Source: an uncultured Bacteroidales bacterium
Lineage (GTDB): Bacteria; Bacteroidota; Bacteroidia; Bacteroidales; Bacteroidaceae
Assembly (NCBI GenBank): GCA_902763885.1
Contig: CACWTU010000002.1
Coordinates: 186,001-250,000 of the forward strand
Length of the DNA: 64,000 bases
Direction of reading: 5' to 3'
Under the pieces are notes generated by a model. It was not told the DNA's origin, ran no database searches, and saw only the letters and a list, made by a program, of their open reading frames with translations. Positions within the stretch are counted from its first letter, which is position 1. Each line of letters starts with the position of its first letter. This document shows, piece after piece, positions 39,986 to 55,463 of this stretch. The translations under genes and the position numbers were made by a program.

Positions 39986-41446
39986 ATGACAACTTCAAAA
40001 ACAAACTCAAACGCTCAGCGGATGACTAATTTCCGCTGGTGGCTGTGCGCCCTTCTTTTTGTGGCCACAACAGTCAATTACCTGGACCGTCAGGTGCTTT
40101 CACTTACGTGGAAGGATTTTATTTCAGCTGATTTTGCATGGACCGACAGCCAGTATGGAACCATAACAGGTTTCTTCTCAATTTTCTATGCTGTGGCATG
40201 TCTGTTCAGCGGCAAGTTCATTGACAAGCTGGGTACCCGTAAGGGTTATCTGTGGGCCATATTCATCTGGTCTGTGGGTGCCTGCCTGCATGCAGCTTGC
40301 GGATGGGCCTCATTGAAATGGGTGGGTGTTGATTCCATGGAGGCTGTAAAGAGCTCGGCCGACCTCACGCTGATTGTATCGACCGTATCGGTCTATATGT
40401 TCATTTTCTGCCGTGCGGTACTGGCTCTTGGTGAATCCGGAAACTTCCCGGCTGCAATCAAGGTTACGGCTGAGTATTTCCCCAAGAAGGACCGTGCATT
40501 CGCCACATCGATATTCAATGCCGGAGCATCGGTAGGTGCGCTGGCAGCTCCTGCATGTATTCCTAAGCTGGCTGCATTGTGGGGCTGGGAGATGGCGTTC
40601 ATAATCATCGGTGCCCTGGGCTTTGTATGGATGTTCTTCTGGTTTGGACTCTATCGTAAGCCAGAGCAGTCCAAGTTCGTGAACCAGGCTGAGTTGGAGT
40701 ATATCCATCAGGATGATGCCTCCGAGCTGGCTGCCGCCAAGGCTGCAGAGCCCCAGAAGGAGGAGAAGTCTATTCCTTTCTTCAAGTGCTTTACATTCCG
40801 TCAGACCTGGGCTTTCATCTGCGGAAAGTTCTTTACAGACGGCGTTTGGTGGTTCTTCCTGTTCTGGGCTCCTGCATATTTCAGCGACCAGTACGGATAC
40901 CGCTCAGACTCAAATGAGGCTATCCTGCTTATATTTGTACTCTATCTGATTGTTACCGTGGTAAGTATAGGCGGCGGTTATCTTCCCAAGCTCTTTGTGG
41001 AGAAGAAGGGTATGGAGCCTTACTCAGGCCGTATGAAGGCTATGCTCATATTCGCTTTCTTCCCGCTGATGGCTCTGTTTGCGCAGCCTCTGGGTAAGTA
41101 CAGCGCATGGTTCCCTGCCATCATCATAGGTCTGGCAGGTGCCGGACATCAGGCTTGGTCAGCAAACCTCTACTCAACAATCGGTGATATGTTCCCAAAG
41201 TCAACTATCGGAACCATTACCGGTGTCGGTACCACAATGGGTGGTCTGGCATCATTCATGATCAACAAGGGTGCCGGTATGCTGTTTACCAAGAGCGATG
41301 CCATGGGTTCCGCTTTCAGTTTCCTGGGCTTTGAGGGCAAGGAAGCTGGTTACATGATTGTGTTCTGCATTTGTGCTGTGGCTTACCTGATTGGTTGGAC
41401 GGTTATGAAGCTGTTGGTTCCTAAGTATAAACCTATTGAGGTATAA
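39986..41446 (+). CDS. MFS transporter, hexuronate/anion:cation symporter type
   Basis: 486 residues with 12 membrane segments. The N-terminus WWLCALLFVATTVNYLDRQVLSLTWKDF and the loop SGKFIDKLGTRKGYLWAIFIWSVGACLHA are characteristic of the ExuT/GudP (ACS) branch, as is the GESGNFPAAIKVTAEYFPKKDRAFATSIFNAGASVGAL segment. It probably imports galacturonate or glucuronate with protons. No uronate catabolic gene is close. It follows murF-alr by 17 nt, so read-through is likely. It ends at the 41463-41519 hairpin. Confidence 0.88.
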   Translation: MTTSKTNSNAQRMTNFRWWLCALLFVATTVNYLDRQVLSLTWKDFISADFAWTDSQYGTITGFFSIFYAVACLFSGKFIDKLGTRKGYLWAIFIWSVGACLHAACGWASLKWVGVDSMEAVKSSADLTLIVSTVSVYMFIFCRAVLALGESGNFPAAIKVTAEYFPKKDRAFATSIFNAGASVGALAAPACIPKLAALWGWEMAFIIIGALGFVWMFFWFGLYRKPEQSKFVNQAELEYIHQDDASELAAAKAAEPQKEEKSIPFFKCFTFRQTWAFICGKFFTDGVWWFFLFWAPAYFSDQYGYRSDSNEAILLIFVLYLIVTVVSIGGGYLPKLFVEKKGMEPYSGRMKAMLIFAFFPLMALFAQPLGKYSAWFPAIIIGLAGAGHQAWSANLYSTIGDMFPKSTIGTITGVGTTMGGLASFMINKGAGMLFTKSDAMGSAFSFLGFEGKEAGYMIVFCICAVAYLIGWTVMKLLVPKYKPIEV

Positions 41447-43730: not shown

Positions 43731-44849
43731 TTATTTATTTTTTGCTTCAATTTCCCTGGCTTCTTTTACGCTTATTTTCTTCCCTTTGTAAAAGGCTATT
43801 ACGAACGCGTCCTTGTATTTTTTTTGGACCTCAGCCTTCGTCTTTAGGATGGCATCATAATCAGTTGTATCACCACATGTATATTTGCACACTCCACTCT
43901 CTTTAAAGTAACTGACATTTGAGTATGCCTTCAGTCTTTTGTCATTACTTTTGAGCGGATTCTTAAGACTCATGAACTGTACTTTGTACACTGGGAGGGA
44001 TTCTGACTTGTCTGTGTCTTCATTACCGATAGCCTGCGAGGTGGGCACCGCTTTATCCAACTGCTTGTTGTGATAATCCAGATACTCACAGAATGCCTTG
44101 TAAAGACTCTGTCCCATCTCATCAACGCCTTTTTGTGAAACAAGGTATTTGCATTCTGCATCGTTTGATATGAAACCAAGCTCTATCAGAATGCTTGGCA
44201 TGGCGCTTTTCCAAAGAACCAGGTATCCAGCCTGATGTACACCTCTGTCAGGTCGCTTTGCGGATTTTGCCATCTGATTCTGGTTAAAGGTGGCCATCTT
44301 GAGGCTTTCCTTCTGGTACTCACTCTGCATGAACTCAAATATTATCATGCTTTCCGGACTGTTAGGGTCATATCCCTCATAGTGAGTTTCATAGTCATTC
44401 TCAAACAGAATGGCCTTATTCTCCTCTAGGGCTACATTCAGATTTGCACTTGCACGGTTCTCTTCAACACCCAGAAGGTAGGTCTCAGCTCCGTTTGCTG
44501 ACTTGTTTTTGGCTGAGTTTGTATGAACGGAGATGAACATGTCAGCACCTGCCTTATTGGCAATGTCGGCACGTTTGTACAGCTCAACAAAGACATCAGT
44601 CTTACGGGTATATATAACCTTAACGTTCTTGCAGTTATCCTCTATGAGCCTGCCCATCTTGAGCGCCACGTTGAGATTGATGGTTTTCTCCTGATTCTTG
44701 CCGTTTACTGCTCCGGGATCCTTTCCGCCATGCCCGGGGTCAATGACAAGCACAAAATTGCCGTCTTTGTCAACGGCACTGGCTGGCACAACCAGAAACA
44801 GGCATATTGCTGTAATGAGAGTCCTGAGTATTTTTTGAATTAGTGTCAT
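43731..44849 (-). CDS. N-acetylmuramoyl-L-alanine amidase with SPOR domain
   Basis: 372 residues. A signal peptide (ITAICLFLVVPASA) precedes an Amidase_3 zinc domain with VIDPGHGGKDPGA (His40), Glu54 in NQEKT, FISVHTNSA (His109) and the catalytic SILIELGFISN. The C-terminal ~85 residues form a SPOR-like peptidoglycan-binding domain (PVYKVQFMSLKNPL...KDAFVIAFYKGKKI). It cleaves septal or general peptidoglycan in the periplasm. Its start overlaps the stop of the upstream CXXCH lipoprotein gene by 4 nt, making it the last gene of the 51597-43731 operon. Confidence 0.93.
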   Translation of the reverse strand: MTLIQKILRTLITAICLFLVVPASAVDKDGNFVLVIDPGHGGKDPGAVNGKNQEKTINLNVALKMGRLIEDNCKNVKVIYTRKTDVFVELYKRADIANKAGADMFISVHTNSAKNKSANGAETYLLGVEENRASANLNVALEENKAILFENDYETHYEGYDPNSPESMIIFEFMQSEYQKESLKMATFNQNQMAKSAKRPDRGVHQAGYLVLWKSAMPSILIELGFISNDAECKYLVSQKGVDEMGQSLYKAFCEYLDYHNKQLDKAVPTSQAIGNEDTDKSESLPVYKVQFMSLKNPLKSNDKRLKAYSNVSYFKESGVCKYTCGDTTDYDAILKTKAEVQKKYKDAFVIAFYKGKKISVKEAREIEAKNK

Positions 44850-46330
44850 TCTTCTCTTTTTTGTTCATAATTGACCGGCTGGGCATCATTGCTCCTGATA
44901 AACGCTGCAAGCTCTCTGGCTGAGACCTTGACAGGCTCAATGGTGAACTCCGGTATGTTATATGAAAACATGAACTTAAGGGAGTGCTGCGGATCTTTCT
45001 GAGGCACGGGGAATGGCTTGGTGAATGTTCCGTCATCATTGAGATGAGAAAGATAGAGGCGGGTGTACATTCCGTCTTCACGTCGTGTACTGAATACTAT
45101 CCATTTTCCGGTGCTGTTCCAGGAGTGGTAGCTCTCAGCTAAATCACTGTTCACTTCATCAAGATACCTGTGTGTGCCATTGGTAAGATCAAACATAATG
45201 AGGTCTGCTTCACTTTGGTAGGGAGGGAACACTCCGTGTGAAGCAATGCAGGCCAGAAGTTTAGTGCCGTCGGGAGATACACGTGGCCATGTAATGCTGC
45301 TGTCAAGTGCGGCTGCATCATAGACCAGAGTCTCCTTACCCCATTCCTTGTTATCGGGATTGAAACGTCGGTAATAGAGGCTGTACTTGACCTCATTGTT
45401 ATTGAATGCGGCGCCGCCTCTGCTCATAAACTGATCCGGATCACCTATGTAGGCAGATACGTAATAGAGCGTTTTTCCATCTGGAGTCCAGTTGGGATGG
45501 CACTCCATTTCATCTGCATCATTCTCTATTATACTCACACTGTTGTTATCCAGGTCATAGAGAATAAGGTCACTCTCTTCATCAAACGCTTCCATCCTGT
45601 CCGTATTATTGGTATGGATGTTCTGGAAGGTCTGATTGTTGGAGTAGGCTATGTAATTTTTGTATGGATGCCAAGACGGATATACTGCCGCTGATATCGT
45701 GGAGTCTGTCTTATGGTTCAGTTTGGAGAGTTTGCCGTTGCGGTACATTACGGTGCCTCCCTGCTCCAGACGGATATGAAACTGCATCTCATCAGTCTTC
45801 CAGTTACGGAAGTTGTGGCAGTTAATGCACTGGCGGCTGTCATCGGCGGCTGACATGGAATTGGCATAAACAACCTTCTCCTTGAAAGAGGTCAGGTCTC
45901 TCTGGTTGATGGAGAGTCTTTGGTATGACATGAACGATGGGGGAATGAGACGATAAGTGAGATATGAATCAATCTCATCGGATACATATATGCTGAATGG
46001 CTTCATCCTGGCCCATCCTTTCTCTCTTTTTTCATATATGGTTACGGATATGTCTCCCTGTGCAGTCAGATTCTTCCACTTTCGGAGTGGTATGAGAACC
46101 TTACGGCCTTTGATGCATACTTTTGATTTGCCTGACTCCAGAACGGTGACGTAACTGTGGGCCTCATCTTCAATAAGGAAATTGGGCGATGCAATGTTTG
46201 AGGGTACTGTGATCTCTATGAAATCGGGATATATTGAGGGAGCGGTGCTCTCTGAATACTTCTTGGGCTCCGATGTGCATCCCGTCATAAGCAGGATGGC
46301 AGTGGACAGATATAAAACGTATCTATTCAT
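44846..46330 (-). CDS. TolB-like beta-propeller lipoprotein with CXXCH motif, copy A
   Basis: 494 residues. The lipoprotein signal ends LMTGC (Cys18). The N-terminal part (~30-130) is a beta domain with YPDFIEITVPSNIASPNFLIED. Then comes a haem-type motif QCINCHNF (Cys168, Cys171, His172). After it follow PD40/TolB-like propeller blades: AAVYPSWHPYKNYIAYSNN, ECHPNWTPDGKTLYYVSA, TWPRVSPDGTKLLACIA, ESYHSWNSTGKWIVFSTRREDG. It is about 50% identical by eye to copy B, with CINCH at exactly the same residue numbers. If haem is attached, it would be a periplasmic or surface cytochrome. The function is unknown. Confidence 0.75.
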   Translation of the reverse strand: MNRYVLYLSTAILLMTGCTSEPKKYSESTAPSIYPDFIEITVPSNIASPNFLIEDEAHSYVTVLESGKSKVCIKGRKVLIPLRKWKNLTAQGDISVTIYEKREKGWARMKPFSIYVSDEIDSYLTYRLIPPSFMSYQRLSINQRDLTSFKEKVVYANSMSAADDSRQCINCHNFRNWKTDEMQFHIRLEQGGTVMYRNGKLSKLNHKTDSTISAAVYPSWHPYKNYIAYSNNQTFQNIHTNNTDRMEAFDEESDLILYDLDNNSVSIIENDADEMECHPNWTPDGKTLYYVSAYIGDPDQFMSRGGAAFNNNEVKYSLYYRRFNPDNKEWGKETLVYDAAALDSSITWPRVSPDGTKLLACIASHGVFPPYQSEADLIMFDLTNGTHRYLDEVNSDLAESYHSWNSTGKWIVFSTRREDGMYTRLYLSHLNDDGTFTKPFPVPQKDPQHSLKFMFSYNIPEFTIEPVKVSARELAAFIRSNDAQPVNYEQKREE

Positions 46331-46334
46331 GTAA

Positions 46335-48182
46335 TCAGAACAGTTTGAGGTTGTTGACGTAATAGTAGTAGTAAAAGAAGGTGTGCCTCAGGTTGGCAGG
46401 GAATATGCGATTGGCTTCTTCAAGATCTTTTGGACCGGTTCTTTGGGCAAGATTCTGGAAAGACTTGTAGAGATTCTTGGTCTGCTCATCGAACGGTAGT
46501 GCCTTAAGAAGCAGGTCAGAATTACCCTGCTGACTGTATAAGTATGCCGCCTCCTGATAGAAACGGTCAATCTTCTTGGGGTTGTTTGAGTCCAGATAGA
46601 GGACGAAACGTGTCCAGAAGAGAGTGGGATCCTTACTTTTCATGGCAAACAACAGAGCTGCCCGATCGTACATGGGAGTGGAGTGAACCGGACTGGGGCC
46701 AGTAAAGTGACGCCTGATAAAGGTCTCGCATCCCTCCAGGTCAGATGTAATCCTGTCTTCATGACAGAGGAGTGGCAGAACCAGGTCATATGGGGCGGTT
46801 TTCTGCATGAGTGAACGGTCATAGACCAGTTTGCGCTGCTCCTTTGCCCATTTGCGATAGAACAACGTATTGTCCATCTTGGTCAGGAATTTCTCTGAAA
46901 GGGCGGTGTTATTAAACAGGATGGCAGTCATGGCTGAATATTTGAATATGATGTTCTTCCAACCCAGTATGGTGGATGTCTCAAAACACCAGCGTTGACA
47001 GAGCCCGGGTATGCCGTAGTGAAAACCGAGTGTATGTCCAATCTGGATGGACATAGGTACATCCCATTTCCTTTTTTGCTCACAGCTGCCGTCGCTGAAT
47101 GAGAAGGCATAATCTCCATCTTTACCGGTCTTGATGAGTGCAAGGTCCTTCAGCGTTACCATGACACGTGTGGGCTGCCAGTCAGAGTCCTGTGATTGAG
47201 AGGCTTTCTCCAGTATCCTGGTCACCTCCTCCCATTTCATGTTGTCGGCAGCGCGGATCATTCGGAGTTCAGTCTTAAAGTTTGCATCCTTGTACCACAG
47301 GATTGAAGTTGAGGCTATGATACCGACTAAAAGAGCGAATTGAATTATGATAGGGATGTATTTTTTCCCGTTGAGCTCACCATGTGGCAGGAGAGATATC
47401 AGAAGCAGTACAATCATGGCCAGAATAAGGGCACCCTGCATCCTCAACAAGGGTACGGTATGTACGTGGTCCGGAAGTCCAAGCGTCCATCCTGTGCCTA
47501 TGTAATATTCAGTAGTACTTACCATAAGTATGGGCGATAACACTATGGTTATTGCTGCAGCGGTAAGTATCAGTATCCTGGAAAGTCTGCTGCGGTCTGA
47601 GCGGAAAGAGTCTGCGCATGCAGTTATTAATGCTGCAAGCGCGTAAAAACCGGCAATGTAATAACCTGCAAATCCGATAATAATCGTTATAATCAGACTG
47701 GCTGCGGGATTATGGGGCTTCCTTATAATTACCACAGTAAAGAGAGCCCACAGATATCCGAGTACGGGCATAAAGAAGTATCCGGGGTGATTCATGAGAT
47801 AGACCATATAGCCCATGGACATATTGTAAACTACAAATATGAAGGCTGGTATATAGGCTAAAACTGATAAATAACCGGGCACTTTGAATATCTTGACGGT
47901 TAACTCTCCTGATGCTGTAAGCAGAAGAACCCAAAGGAGAGATCCAAGCCATGGAAGGTAAAGGAACTGGGTAAAGAAGAGCCCCAACCATGAGAGAAGC
48001 CCTGAAGGCTCTTTTAAGAATCCGGTGAACCAGAACCAGTCAAACTCAAAATGGGATCTTTCCTCAACCTTGAGCAGGAAATCAGCTGAACATAAGTTGA
48101 GTATTACCCATAAGGCTACGGGAAGTATGAGGCGTGAGTACCAGATTAAAGAGGTCTTGTTATTCTCCTTTTTTTGATTCAT
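46335..48182 (-). CDS. Polytopic membrane protein (DUF6057-like), copy A
   Basis: 615 residues. About ten hydrophobic segments fill the first ~330 residues (LPVALWVILNLCSADFLL, FFTQFLYLPWLGSLLWVLLLTASGEL, PGYFFMPVLGYLWALFTVVII). The C-terminal ~280 residues are helical and soluble (WEEVTRILEKASQ, FLTKMDNTLFYRKWAKEQ, YDRAALLFAMKSKDP). The family name is from memory and uncertain. It overlaps the preceding CXXCH gene (copy B) by 23 nt and lies 4 nt before copy A. There are no catalytic motifs that I recognise. Confidence 0.7.
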   Translation of the reverse strand: MNQKKENNKTSLIWYSRLILPVALWVILNLCSADFLLKVEERSHFEFDWFWFTGFLKEPSGLLSWLGLFFTQFLYLPWLGSLLWVLLLTASGELTVKIFKVPGYLSVLAYIPAFIFVVYNMSMGYMVYLMNHPGYFFMPVLGYLWALFTVVIIRKPHNPAASLIITIIIGFAGYYIAGFYALAALITACADSFRSDRSRLSRILILTAAAITIVLSPILMVSTTEYYIGTGWTLGLPDHVHTVPLLRMQGALILAMIVLLLISLLPHGELNGKKYIPIIIQFALLVGIIASTSILWYKDANFKTELRMIRAADNMKWEEVTRILEKASQSQDSDWQPTRVMVTLKDLALIKTGKDGDYAFSFSDGSCEQKRKWDVPMSIQIGHTLGFHYGIPGLCQRWCFETSTILGWKNIIFKYSAMTAILFNNTALSEKFLTKMDNTLFYRKWAKEQRKLVYDRSLMQKTAPYDLVLPLLCHEDRITSDLEGCETFIRRHFTGPSPVHSTPMYDRAALLFAMKSKDPTLFWTRFVLYLDSNNPKKIDRFYQEAAYLYSQQGNSDLLLKALPFDEQTKNLYKSFQNLAQRTGPKDLEEANRIFPANLRHTFFYYYYYVNNLKLF

Positions 48183-49644
48183 ATTTGGAACGTGTTGCTT
48201 CTGTACTTGAAATAAATGATGCGAATTGTCTGGGGGTTATATGAACCGGTTCCTTCATGAACTCCGGAATATTGAAGGCATAAAGGAATTCGCGATTGAA
48301 GTCCGGATCTTCCTGAGGTAGGGCGAATGGTTTTGAGAAATGACCGTTCTCATCAATATGGCTGAAGTATAGACGGGTATGAACTCCGTCTTCACGACGG
48401 GTGCTGAACATCAGCCATTTGCCGTTAGTGGACCATGAGTGATAGCTCTCTGCAAACGGACTGTTCAGCTCATCCGCATATCGGTACGAATAGTCATTGA
48501 GATCATAAATCACAAAATCAGATGCAATCTGGTCAAGCGGGAAGATTCCGTGAGTGCTGATGCAGCAAACCATCCATCGCCCACTGGGTGATACGCGTGG
48601 CCAGGTCATGCTGCTGTCTTTGGCTGCTGCATCATAAATAAGCTCTTTCTTTCCCCATACACGGGTATCGGGGTCAAACGGTTTGCTGTATAGACTGAAA
48701 TGCAATTTCTTTCTGTCAATGAACATCTGATTCTTCCTGTCGGGGCCGAACGGGGCTTCATAATGTGCAGATACGTAGTAAAGGGTTCTGCCGTCAGCGG
48801 ACCATCCCGGAAAACACTCCAATTCACTTGAATCATTTTCAATGACACTTACCGTGTTGTCAGATGTGTTATACAGAATAATATCATTATTCTCATCTAT
48901 CACCTCCAGCTTGTCGTGGCTGGCTGCATGCACAGACTGATGTGTCCAGTTGTTGGAAAGTGCTATGTAATCATGCGTGGGATGCCATGAAGGATATACT
49001 CCGGCAGATATGGTGGAGTCTGTCTTCATGTTGACTTTATTCAGTTTTCCGTCAAGAACCAGTATTGTACCGCCCTTGTACTGGCGTACATGGAACATCA
49101 TATTGTCTGTGTCTCCGTTCTGGTAATGATGACAGTTTATGCAGGTGCCTTGCGCGTTGTCCTGAATCATAGTGTTTGAGACCACTACTTTTTCTTTAAA
49201 GTTCGTTATGTTCCTTTGCCGTATGGTAAGTTTCTCATAGGATTCAACAGCTACCGGAATGATACGATATGAGATGTAGGGGTCTATCTCATCGCTTACG
49301 GTCATCTTGAACGGAGCGTATGCTGTCCACTTGCCATTTTTTCTGGCATATACCTGAACATTTATTTCAGGAGCATTTGTCAGTTCCTTCCATTTGGACT
49401 GGGAGATGCGTACTTGACTACCCTTTACGGAATATTCTGCTGATCCGGATTTCAGTACTGTGATATATGAATCAGCATCATCCTCTATCAAAAAGTTCAT
49501 TGGTGCAATATTCCGCGGTATGGTTACATCCGTATAGTCGGGGAATATGGCAGGAACTGAATCTGTTTTGTCATAGGCTGATGGAGCCTTAGGCGCGCAG
49601 GCGGCCAACAACAATGCAAATGCGGGTATGGTTATTTTTTTCAT
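48160..49644 (-). CDS. TolB-like beta-propeller lipoprotein with CXXCH motif, copy B
   Basis: 494 residues, the same length as copy A. The lipobox is LLAAC (Cys16). The domain order is identical: FPDYTDVTIPRNIAPMNFLIED, then GTCINCHHYQN (Cys168, Cys171, His172), then propeller blades with AGVYPSWHPTHDYIALSNN, ECFPGWSADGRTLYYVSA, TWPRVSPSGRWMVCCIS and ESYHSWSTNGKWLMFSTRREDG. A histidine shared by both copies in MxFHxR (His185) could serve as second haem ligand. It lies 3 nt after the first DUF6057-like gene. Confidence 0.75.
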   Translation of the reverse strand: MKKITIPAFALLLAACAPKAPSAYDKTDSVPAIFPDYTDVTIPRNIAPMNFLIEDDADSYITVLKSGSAEYSVKGSQVRISQSKWKELTNAPEINVQVYARKNGKWTAYAPFKMTVSDEIDPYISYRIIPVAVESYEKLTIRQRNITNFKEKVVVSNTMIQDNAQGTCINCHHYQNGDTDNMMFHVRQYKGGTILVLDGKLNKVNMKTDSTISAGVYPSWHPTHDYIALSNNWTHQSVHAASHDKLEVIDENNDIILYNTSDNTVSVIENDSSELECFPGWSADGRTLYYVSAHYEAPFGPDRKNQMFIDRKKLHFSLYSKPFDPDTRVWGKKELIYDAAAKDSSMTWPRVSPSGRWMVCCISTHGIFPLDQIASDFVIYDLNDYSYRYADELNSPFAESYHSWSTNGKWLMFSTRREDGVHTRLYFSHIDENGHFSKPFALPQEDPDFNREFLYAFNIPEFMKEPVHITPRQFASFISSTEATRSKYESKKGE

Positions 49645-49647
49645 AGA

Positions 49648-51597
49648 TCAGTACGTTTGGATATCTCGAATAAAATAATAGTAGTAGTAAAAGGTCTTGC
49701 CGAACTTTTTTGAATATGGGTAGGCAGATTCTTTCATATTACGTACAGGATTGGTTTGGGTATAACGGTTAAAGGCATCATAGCTGTTTTCCACTTCCTT
49801 GCTGTACGGTAGATCAAATACGGGTTTTTCCAGTTTGCCGTACAACAGGGCTGCCTCCTGTACATTTTTTGGTAATTGTTCCACTTTATTGGATTTAATA
49901 TAATAATACAGCCTTTCCCAGAACAAGGGGATGTTCTGGGTACGCATAGCCCATAAAAGTGCTGCACGGTCATATTCCGGTGTGGGTTGTGGCGGTTCTG
50001 ATTCTGAGAAGTGTTTCATAAGGAATGTTTCACTCTTGACCAAATCATTTGTCATCCGGTTTTCAAAGCACATATAGGGCAGGATGCTTTGATAAGGCTC
50101 ACTTACGGACATCATCACACTGTCTGCCGTCAAAAGACCTTGTCCTTTTGCCCACTTACGGTAAAAAATGGTTTTTTCAAGCTTGTTGAGATATTTGCGT
50201 GCAAATTCACTTTCCTGCATGATAATGCAGTGCATTGCCATATACTTGAGAGTGCTGTAACTCCAGTTATGCTCAATGACATCCTCCAGGCACCAGCGGT
50301 AACTCATATTGACCAGTCCGTACTGGAGGTAGAACTGTTTTCCTGACTGAAAAGACATTGGAATCTGGGTGCGTGATTTCTGGAGACGTCCTCCGTCTTT
50401 CATAGTGAAGGCCTCGTCAAGGGCACGGTTCATCTTGAGCAAGGCAAGGTCACGGTAGAGGACCATTGTGCGGGTGGGCTCAAAGAACCGGTCGCTGAAG
50501 CTGTCAATGATACTGTTTCTTGTGTCCTGATCCTTTACGCCTTTTAGCTTGGCGGTACGGTCATCATATGCCTTGTCATCGGATTTTACATGTGCATCGA
50601 CCGCTTTCCGGTAGAAGTCAACGACTTCCTGCCACTCAAAGCGGTCAACAGCATCAGACATGGCAAGTTCTGTACGGAAATTGTCATCCTTGAACCAGAA
50701 TCCCCATACGGCGGTTGCCGATATGATGTAAACCGATGTTTGGAATATGATGTTTTTGCTGTCAGTCTCTTTTAGCCGGCGCGATGCTATTGCCATTACA
50801 GGGAGAAAAAGCAGTGCCAGTTGAAACGGAGTCCTGATGGCAAATGTCCATTGGTCATCTGATATGGAAGGGAGCCCCATATGCCAACTGTCAACCAGAC
50901 GATATGAGGTGTAGAAACTATATGCTATAAGTGGAATAAAGATGATTAGTGCAAGACTTACTGCCAGTATTGTGAGGCGTTTGCTGCGTAACATTTCCTG
51001 ATCCATAAACGTTGTGCAGGCAGCGGTAAGAGTGCCAATAAATGCAAATGTTCCGAAAAGAGGGAATCCTATTGCTGTCCAGATTGTAAGCAAGATGAGC
51101 TTGCTTGCCACGGTCTGGGTGCGTTTAATGGCAAATAATGGTATAAGCGCAGCAAGATAACCCAATACAGGAGCAAAGAAATGGTCCTGTTCCCTCATTA
51201 TGAATACTCCGTATCCTAATGACATGTTGCCGATAACAAGCAATGCAACGGGAATAAGAGCTATCGGACGGTATCTTTCAGGAATGCGTAATGCTCTTAT
51301 TGTAAGATAGTATGAGAGCAGAAGTAATGCAATCCATATCAGTGCTCCTAACCATGGTATATACAGGAACTGGGTGAGGAAGGAGCCTGCCAGGCCAAGA
51401 AAACCTCCGGGAGTCTTGAAACTGTCCATTATGAAAAGTTTGTCAAAAAGGAAAACGGAGAGGTCTTCAACCTTTTTCAGGAAAAACTGCTCCCGGAATG
51501 AAAGAACACACCATAGGATGACGGCAAAAAGTATCGGAATATACTTTAGCAGCTGCTCAGACAGCCGTATGGATTTATTAGTAGTGACTTTTGTCAT
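49648..51597 (-). CDS. Polytopic membrane protein (DUF6057-like), copy B
   Basis: 649 residues from ATG 51597 (MTKVTTNKSIRLSEQ); the frame extends further upstream through the promoter, which is rejected. The N-terminal half has around ten membrane segments (LFAVILWCVLSFREQFFLKKVEDL, FLTQFLYIPWLGALIWIALLLLSYYL). The C-terminal half is soluble and helical (FEWQEVVDFYRKAV, YLNKLEKTIFYRKWAKGQ, EYDRAALLWAMRTQN). The shared FLTQFLY-PWLG and FYRKWAK patterns show it is a paralogue of copy A. It is the first gene of the operon, with a TATCTTTG box upstream. Confidence 0.72.
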   Translation of the reverse strand: MTKVTTNKSIRLSEQLLKYIPILFAVILWCVLSFREQFFLKKVEDLSVFLFDKLFIMDSFKTPGGFLGLAGSFLTQFLYIPWLGALIWIALLLLSYYLTIRALRIPERYRPIALIPVALLVIGNMSLGYGVFIMREQDHFFAPVLGYLAALIPLFAIKRTQTVASKLILLTIWTAIGFPLFGTFAFIGTLTAACTTFMDQEMLRSKRLTILAVSLALIIFIPLIAYSFYTSYRLVDSWHMGLPSISDDQWTFAIRTPFQLALLFLPVMAIASRRLKETDSKNIIFQTSVYIISATAVWGFWFKDDNFRTELAMSDAVDRFEWQEVVDFYRKAVDAHVKSDDKAYDDRTAKLKGVKDQDTRNSIIDSFSDRFFEPTRTMVLYRDLALLKMNRALDEAFTMKDGGRLQKSRTQIPMSFQSGKQFYLQYGLVNMSYRWCLEDVIEHNWSYSTLKYMAMHCIIMQESEFARKYLNKLEKTIFYRKWAKGQGLLTADSVMMSVSEPYQSILPYMCFENRMTNDLVKSETFLMKHFSESEPPQPTPEYDRAALLWAMRTQNIPLFWERLYYYIKSNKVEQLPKNVQEAALLYGKLEKPVFDLPYSKEVENSYDAFNRYTQTNPVRNMKESAYPYSKKFGKTFYYYYYFIRDIQTY

Positions 51598-51630: not shown

Positions 51631-55463
<3,833 letters not shown>

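Follow-up and report, generated by a model that had tools for sequence, protein, structure and literature searches.

A recurring pair of a DUF6057 membrane protein and a CXXCH propeller lipoprotein in Bacteroidales and its possible redox role

What does a lipoprotein that joins a CXXCH motif to a beta-propeller do beside a polytopic membrane protein of family DUF6057, and why should the two occur together twice in a row? The question is raised by a 64,000-nt stretch of the genome of an uncultured Bacteroidales bacterium (hereafter the window, to whose positions the coordinates refer; G numbers denote sampled genomes and L numbers fetched loci), in which a minus-strand operon carries two successive copies of this pair, or module. 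A sequence-only reading of the same DNA had given the gene order as DUF6057-B, lipoprotein B, DUF6057-A, lipoprotein A and amidase, with intergenic gaps of 3, -23, 4 and -4 nt, and had proposed a two-component unit with a possible haem on the lipoprotein. The five-gene arrangement is confirmed by the open reading frames (ORFs), and the codon positions bear out that both lipoproteins are 494 residues long with CINCH at residues 168-172. The two modules consist of the following features.

49648..51597, minus strand: DUF6057-B, an ORF for a polytopic membrane protein with a soluble tail, 649 amino acids from the ATG at 51597; PF19529, E 2.5e-68
48160..49644, minus strand: lipoprotein B, 494 amino acids, with lipobox-type Cys16, an N-terminal region, CINCH at 168-172 and a PD40 propeller; PF07676, E 1.4e-12
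49129..49143, minus strand: putative haem-attachment motif CINCH of lipoprotein B, residues 168-172 of the product of 48160-49644
46335..48182, minus strand: DUF6057-A, 615 amino acids; PF19529, E 3.1e-64
44846..46330, minus strand: lipoprotein A, 494 amino acids, with CINCH at 168-172 and a PD40 propeller; PF07676, E 4.2e-10
45815..45829, minus strand: putative haem-attachment motif CINCH of lipoprotein A, residues 168-172 of the product of 44846-46330

Both membrane proteins match DUF6057 (PF19529), whose function Pfam gives as unknown, at 218 and 232 bits against a curated cut-off of 29.8, so that their earlier assignment as DUF6057-like holds; an alternative in-frame start of DUF6057-B at TTG 51708 would lengthen it to 686 amino acids. 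The TolB/PD40-type blades are likewise upheld by the PF07676 matches in both lipoproteins, where PD40 is the sole Pfam domain over its cut-off. Literature searches found no publication naming DUF6057, none on the DUF6057-lipoprotein pair among the matches listed (judged by title and abstract start), and nothing on a Bacteroides CXXCH beta-propeller lipoprotein or a Bacteroides PD40 domain-containing protein.

Pairing of the two families

The distribution of the two families was followed in 198 genomes of the order, 121 of the window's family and 247 of the phylum, each sample including the window's own genome. The lipoprotein profile matched 23 genomes of the order, from which G065 and G147 were dropped because only the propeller part matched, and full-length lipoprotein and DUF6057 proved to be confined to the same 21 of the 198. 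Within the family the lipoprotein is found in 89 of 121 genomes and DUF6057 in all 89 of these, while in the phylum, where five genomes matched and G475 and G511 were dropped as partial, the three with a full-length lipoprotein, the window's included, are the three of the 247 that have DUF6057. The copy numbers of the two partners match in all 21 genomes of the order (pieces of one frame being merged by hand, propeller-only partial matches in G057 and G134 excluded, and one G180 copy counted from locus clustering), with two DUF6057 fragments, of 275 residues (G095) and 86 residues (G156), as the only mismatches, and the number of modules per genome rises to seven (G180). On these distributions the two-component unit suggested earlier is borne out.

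The partners are also neighbours. A same-strand DUF6057 gene lies within 318 bp of 47 of the 53 lipoprotein frames, pieces included; the other six comprise two pieces of one broken gene, one frame at a contig end, and three lipoproteins without a same-strand partner in the fetched stretch (L075, L113 and one in L077). In 20 further loci from the family, all 22 lipoproteins adjoin DUF6057. Across 43 pairs the distances of the two partners correlate at 0.72, a value that none of 5000 shuffles of partners within genomes reached (highest 0.66), although part of this correlation is explained by linked inheritance. That the two proteins form a conserved unit recurring in relatives is therefore well supported.

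The sequence-only reading would have been undermined by the two families occurring apart. In the three samples no genome with a full-length lipoprotein lacks DUF6057, but weak DUF6057-like matches (E 1.9e-12 to 2.6e-19) do occur in 12 of the 121 family genomes, among them G207, G220 and G312, that have no CXXCH lipoprotein, and these genes are possibly a haem-free branch. Beyond the three samples, no relative was found in viral contigs, and a contig-profile scan from a two-sequence alignment recovered only two near relatives. A plasmid collection queried with DUF6057-A gave no match, yet annotated DUF6057 genes are present there, so this search was too insensitive.

Motif, maturation genes and location of the lipoprotein

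The case for haem depends first on whether the CXXCH motif is a lasting property of the family, and 101 of 103 distinct full-length lipoprotein copies retain it. The copies come from sets of 50 (48 with CXXCH), 42 (42), 22 (22, 13 of them repeats of the 42) and 2 from the window's genus (2). A lipobox-type cysteine aligned with Cys16 of lipoprotein B, recognised from the alignment, is present in 50 of 50 full-length proteins, and downstream of CXXCH the alignment offers two candidate distal axial ligands, His185 (48 of 50) and Met182 (31 of 50). Because the start of the motif ranges from residue 167 to 238 among the 48 full-length motif-bearing relatives (with start codons assigned mechanically), the identical length and motif position of lipoproteins A and B are partly coincidence. 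Further afield, three proteins from genomes assigned to the same phylum only (L133, L134 and L136) retain C[AG]NCH with PD40-type sequence, and the two of them that were scanned, L133 and L134, end in TPR repeats; no DUF6057 match was found in the three genomes.

Compared with known structures, the family profile matches TolB and Atu1656, with a TolB-like protein and TolB blades as the best matches, all at E above 9e-7 and the best of them within the propeller part, while lipoprotein B alone has no match. The PD40 blades are thus shared with TolB, but at 27.9 and 23.7 bits the window lipoproteins fall far short of the NCBIfam TolB equivalog cut-off of 343 bits, and the CXXCH and the DUF6057 partner are additional.

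No maturation genes had been seen in the window, and a search for them in the relevant genomes had been proposed. They are encoded elsewhere in the window's own genome, where CcsA (E 2.2e-35) and a ResB-like protein (E 1e-24) lie on contig C11 (L117:8548-14310). Nearby are genes for a di-haem oxidoreductase (PF06537) and an imelysin, together with one whose product matches an outer-membrane barrel model below the cut-off, and the stretch is possibly an iron or haem redox locus.

The CcsA model PF01578 is found in 162 of 198 genomes of the order and in every one of the 21 that have the module (p 0.011); in the phylum sample it is present in the four genomes, other than the window's, that have full or partial lipoprotein matches. 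In the family, PF01578 is missing from 12 of 121 genomes, and 10 of these have neither lipoprotein nor ResB (Fisher p 2e-5 for the association with the lipoprotein; 0.0012 by permutation within genera). Of the two exceptions, G206 carries ResB on a 5.6-kb contig whose end is about 320 bp away, so that its CcsA may have been lost to assembly. The other, G225, counts as a genuine exception on the searches made: it has four lipoprotein matches, the three fetched ones each bearing CXXCH, and no match to PF01578 or ResB. Given maturation genes in the same genome and this correlated loss, haem attachment at the CXXCH, formerly a possibility, is now likely.

The earlier suggestion of a wall-side or surface propeller can be narrowed. 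The export signal of surface lipoproteins in Bacteroidota, which follows the lipidated cysteine, is described as acidic in PMC5080379. At positions +2 to +6 the lipoproteins carry a mean of 0.72 acidic residues, with two or more in only 5 of 50, against a mean of 2.0 in the SusD proteins of the same loci (n=17, those of 21 with a lipobox found by a simple pattern, one of the 17 looking misplaced; p 2e-6). Since the acidic signature of the SusD proteins is missing, the surface location was rejected and a periplasm-facing lipoprotein is the likelier arrangement.

Glycan loci, tandem copies and allele exchange

An association that the sequence-only reading had overlooked, and that the window's own module does not share, is with the SusC/SusD genes. 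SusD is present in 17 of 47 module loci (single-partner loci included) against 3.4 expected from the density of PF14322; because this expectation may be too low, other SusD models being uncounted, the 28 module loci of 12 genomes were set against 40 control windows taken from the module-bearing contigs of the same genomes. With SusC and SusD profiles that were built from module loci and may be biased towards them, SusD was found in 16 of 28 module loci against 3 of 40 controls (p 1e-5) and SusC in 17 of 28 against 5 of 40. The same comparison gave no support for a general enrichment of glycoside hydrolases or two-component regulators; GH28 occurs in 2 of 28 module loci against 0 of 40, and a mixed GH88/105/16 cluster likewise in 2 against 0.

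Beside the window's module stands a divergent gene, which is divergent in L118 and L119 too.

51709..54912, plus strand: GH2 beta-galactosidase-type gene, divergent from DUF6057-B; PF02836, E 4.5e-90

Near the module there is also a hexuronate carrier-like MFS transporter (39986-41446), and KDPG-aldolase-like and KduD-like genes, recognised by eye, lie near another module (L105:10051-15058). A uronate link is possible; the transporter occurs in 0 of 28 module loci and 0 of 40 controls and so provides no contrast.

A cultured gut species, Parabacteroides distasonis TSDC17.2-1.1, has the same pair at three loci, of which one holds a tandem double module; their motif reads CMNCH or CVNCH, and the strain also has CcsA. 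One pair follows SusC/SusD, and the tandem double module precedes genes for GH26, GH130, an MFS transporter, an epimerase and an esterase. In NCBI these genes are annotated one by one as 'DUF6057 family protein' and 'PD40 domain-containing protein', with neither haem nor partnership recorded. Several P. distasonis records labelled as plasmids (NZ_OY725790.1, NZ_OY725752.1 and sister records) carry the housekeeping genes pfkA, cmk and argC and look like chromosomal contigs.

Duplication of the module in the window's lineage is old. Lipoproteins A and B are 48% identical and the two DUF6057 copies 35-36%. Each lipoprotein is closer to its counterpart in L119 (67% identity for A and for B alike) than A copies are to B copies (48-51%), so the duplication predates the species. 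Nine close-relative loci were available, of which five have the tandem (the window, L118, L119, G215 and G272) and three a single pair (G283, G248 and G261); the ninth, G292, runs into a contig end.

The close relative L118 reveals a further kind of change. From roughly 41.9 to 51.8 kb its identity to the window stays at about 99%, broken by two tracts with sharp boundaries and by a small dip near 46.5-46.7 kb.

48420..50400: swapped tract relative to L118, covering DUF6057-B residues ~399-649 and lipoprotein B residues 1 to ~408; ~44-82% DNA identity per 60 bp
45120..45720: second divergent tract relative to L118, inside lipoprotein A, residues ~203-403

In the first tract L118 resembles G215, with 90% identity in the DUF6057-B tail and 89% in the lipoprotein B segment, whereas the membrane part of its DUF6057-B shares 99% with the window but 60% with G215. 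For the window's own swapped segments the closest counterparts are those of G272 (76% and 81%). The existence of both allele types in independent genomes speaks against an assembly chimera, and the tracts are apparent allele replacements. That the DUF6057-B tail and lipoprotein B were exchanged together fits two parts matched to each other, though they are also contiguous DNA.

A candidate redox unit and its alternatives

How might these observations be joined? The reading towards which we lean on balance makes the lipoprotein a c-type cytochrome that faces the periplasm and is docked on an inner-membrane partner of its own. The lipoprotein would be exported by Sec and lipidated at the lipobox cysteine; a System II synthase (CcsA and ResB), encoded elsewhere, would place one covalent c-type haem at CXNCH; and the C-terminal TolB/PD40-type propeller would face the periplasm, where the soluble tail of DUF6057, periplasmic when read by hand, would dock it. 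Such a unit would most likely act in glycan handling, as a redox relay or redox sensor particular to its locus, and its duplication and diversification would let different copies serve different loci.

A number of observations weigh against this reading. As to the haem, no cytochrome c domain is listed for either window lipoprotein (Pfam, E up to 0.1), which sets them apart from the known System II (CcsBA) c-type cytochromes that they resemble in the CXXCH, the lipobox cysteine and the CcsA and ResB of the genome. Full-length paralogues in L087 (6156-7667) and L075 (7062-8459) lack both CXXCH cysteines, though each genome still holds a CXXCH-bearing copy, and the CcsA correlation is one-way only, since 22 family genomes have PF01578 and no lipoprotein; G225 has the reverse. 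As to the membrane partner, DUF6057 has no conserved histidine, and its membrane part has no conserved charged residue (the near-invariant E401, K431 and E544 sit in the tail), so that no cofactor or proton path is evident. It can moreover exist without the lipoprotein, to judge from the 12 family genomes with weak matches and from family locus L244, which has two DUF6057 genes and one lipoprotein.

As to docking, co-evolution and joint swapping alone are no proof of contact, because operon neighbours share their history and are contiguous DNA, and homology of the DUF6057 tail to the TPR repeats of the distant fused relatives found no support (hhalign probability 0.5 per cent), which leaves the fusion argument weak. 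As to glycans, 30 of the 47 module loci have no SusD, none lies in the 18 kb around the window's own module, and the 20 further family loci, for which there is no control set, have SusD in 4 and SusC in 7; besides the possible bias of the profiles, enrichment is unclear for GH2 (5 of 28 module loci against 3 of 40 controls) and for hybrid two-component regulators (5 of 28 against 6 of 40).

The missing cytochrome c domain and the four CcsA- and ResB-free lipoprotein matches of G225 are also what would be expected if the CXXCH instead bound a metal ion or acted as a thiol-disulfide switch, the CcsA correlation then reflecting a shared loss of redox metabolism. We regard this as unlikely, given that the complete motif, histidine included, is kept in nearly all copies and recurs as C[AG]NCH in the three distant relatives, that 10 of the 12 family genomes without PF01578 also have no lipoprotein, and that the G206 exception may be an artefact of its short contig.

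A somewhat smaller chance attaches to DUF6057 being a GT-C-like glycosyltransferase, with the lipoprotein as its specificity or acceptor partner and the haem incidental or regulatory. GT-C enzymes have the N-terminus inside, a long first periplasmic loop with an acidic residue, and a soluble periplasmic C-terminal domain. In the family profile of DUF6057 eight hydrophobic stretches stand out; one is of double length, with room for two helices, and a long gap follows the first. By the positive-inside rule, applied by hand, this may be read as nine helices and a periplasmic tail. A glutamate at position 40 of that first gap is found in 33 of 47 DUF6057 proteins; the residue is glutamine in 10 of the 47, however, no GT-C family is among the Pfam matches, and DUF6057 has no significant sequence match in the PDB (best E 0.056).

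The earlier reading had argued for an envelope role from the gene at the end of the operon.

43731..44849, minus strand: N-acetylmuramoyl-L-alanine amidase, overlapping lipoprotein A by 4 nt; PF01520 (Amidase_3), E 2.9e-49

It had called this gene a SPOR amidase, of which the Amidase_3 part stands, while no SPOR model is listed at E up to 0.1 (Pfam) and the C-terminus is SPOR-like by eye only. A joint role of module and amidase in the cell wall or envelope integrity could draw on the 4-nt overlap and on the presence of an amidase in 8 of the 9 close-relative loci, but a window-like amidase lies near the module in only 1 of the 20 other family loci, and the BLAST cluster of the window's amidase has just three members among 51 loci (the window, L118 and L119). 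The amidase is thus mainly a feature of close relatives and was rejected as a general partner of the module, and the envelope role becomes improbable.

Least probable of all is a structural, non-redox periplasmic scaffold resembling PorE (PG1058) of the type IX secretion system, a predicted lipoprotein that joins TPR repeats to a propeller at the periplasmic side of the outer membrane (PMC5053529): the window family shares the lipoprotein and propeller, and its distant relatives L133 and L134 fuse a CXNCH propeller to TPR, but PorE has CRD and OmpA_C-like domains, neither of which is listed for the window lipoproteins, the abstract of PMC5053529 does not mention haem, and a pure scaffold gives no obvious reason for CXXCH conservation.

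If the c-type cytochrome reading is correct, a haem lipoprotein and its constant membrane partner would add a redox step to SusC/SusD-associated glycan handling. To our knowledge, polysaccharide utilisation in Bacteroidales has been described without such a step, and because the unit often adjoins glycan-uptake genes it may reveal one that has been overlooked. More tentatively, one may imagine a previously unrecognised class of redox unit, in which a mono-haem propeller lipoprotein and its membrane partner couple electron transfer or redox sensing to the glycan-uptake loci of Bacteroidales, multiplied and diversified by swapping of tail-plus-propeller alleles. For DUF6057, a family of unknown function, the pairing would bring a partner and a testable property in Parabacteroides distasonis, a cultured species of the human gut.

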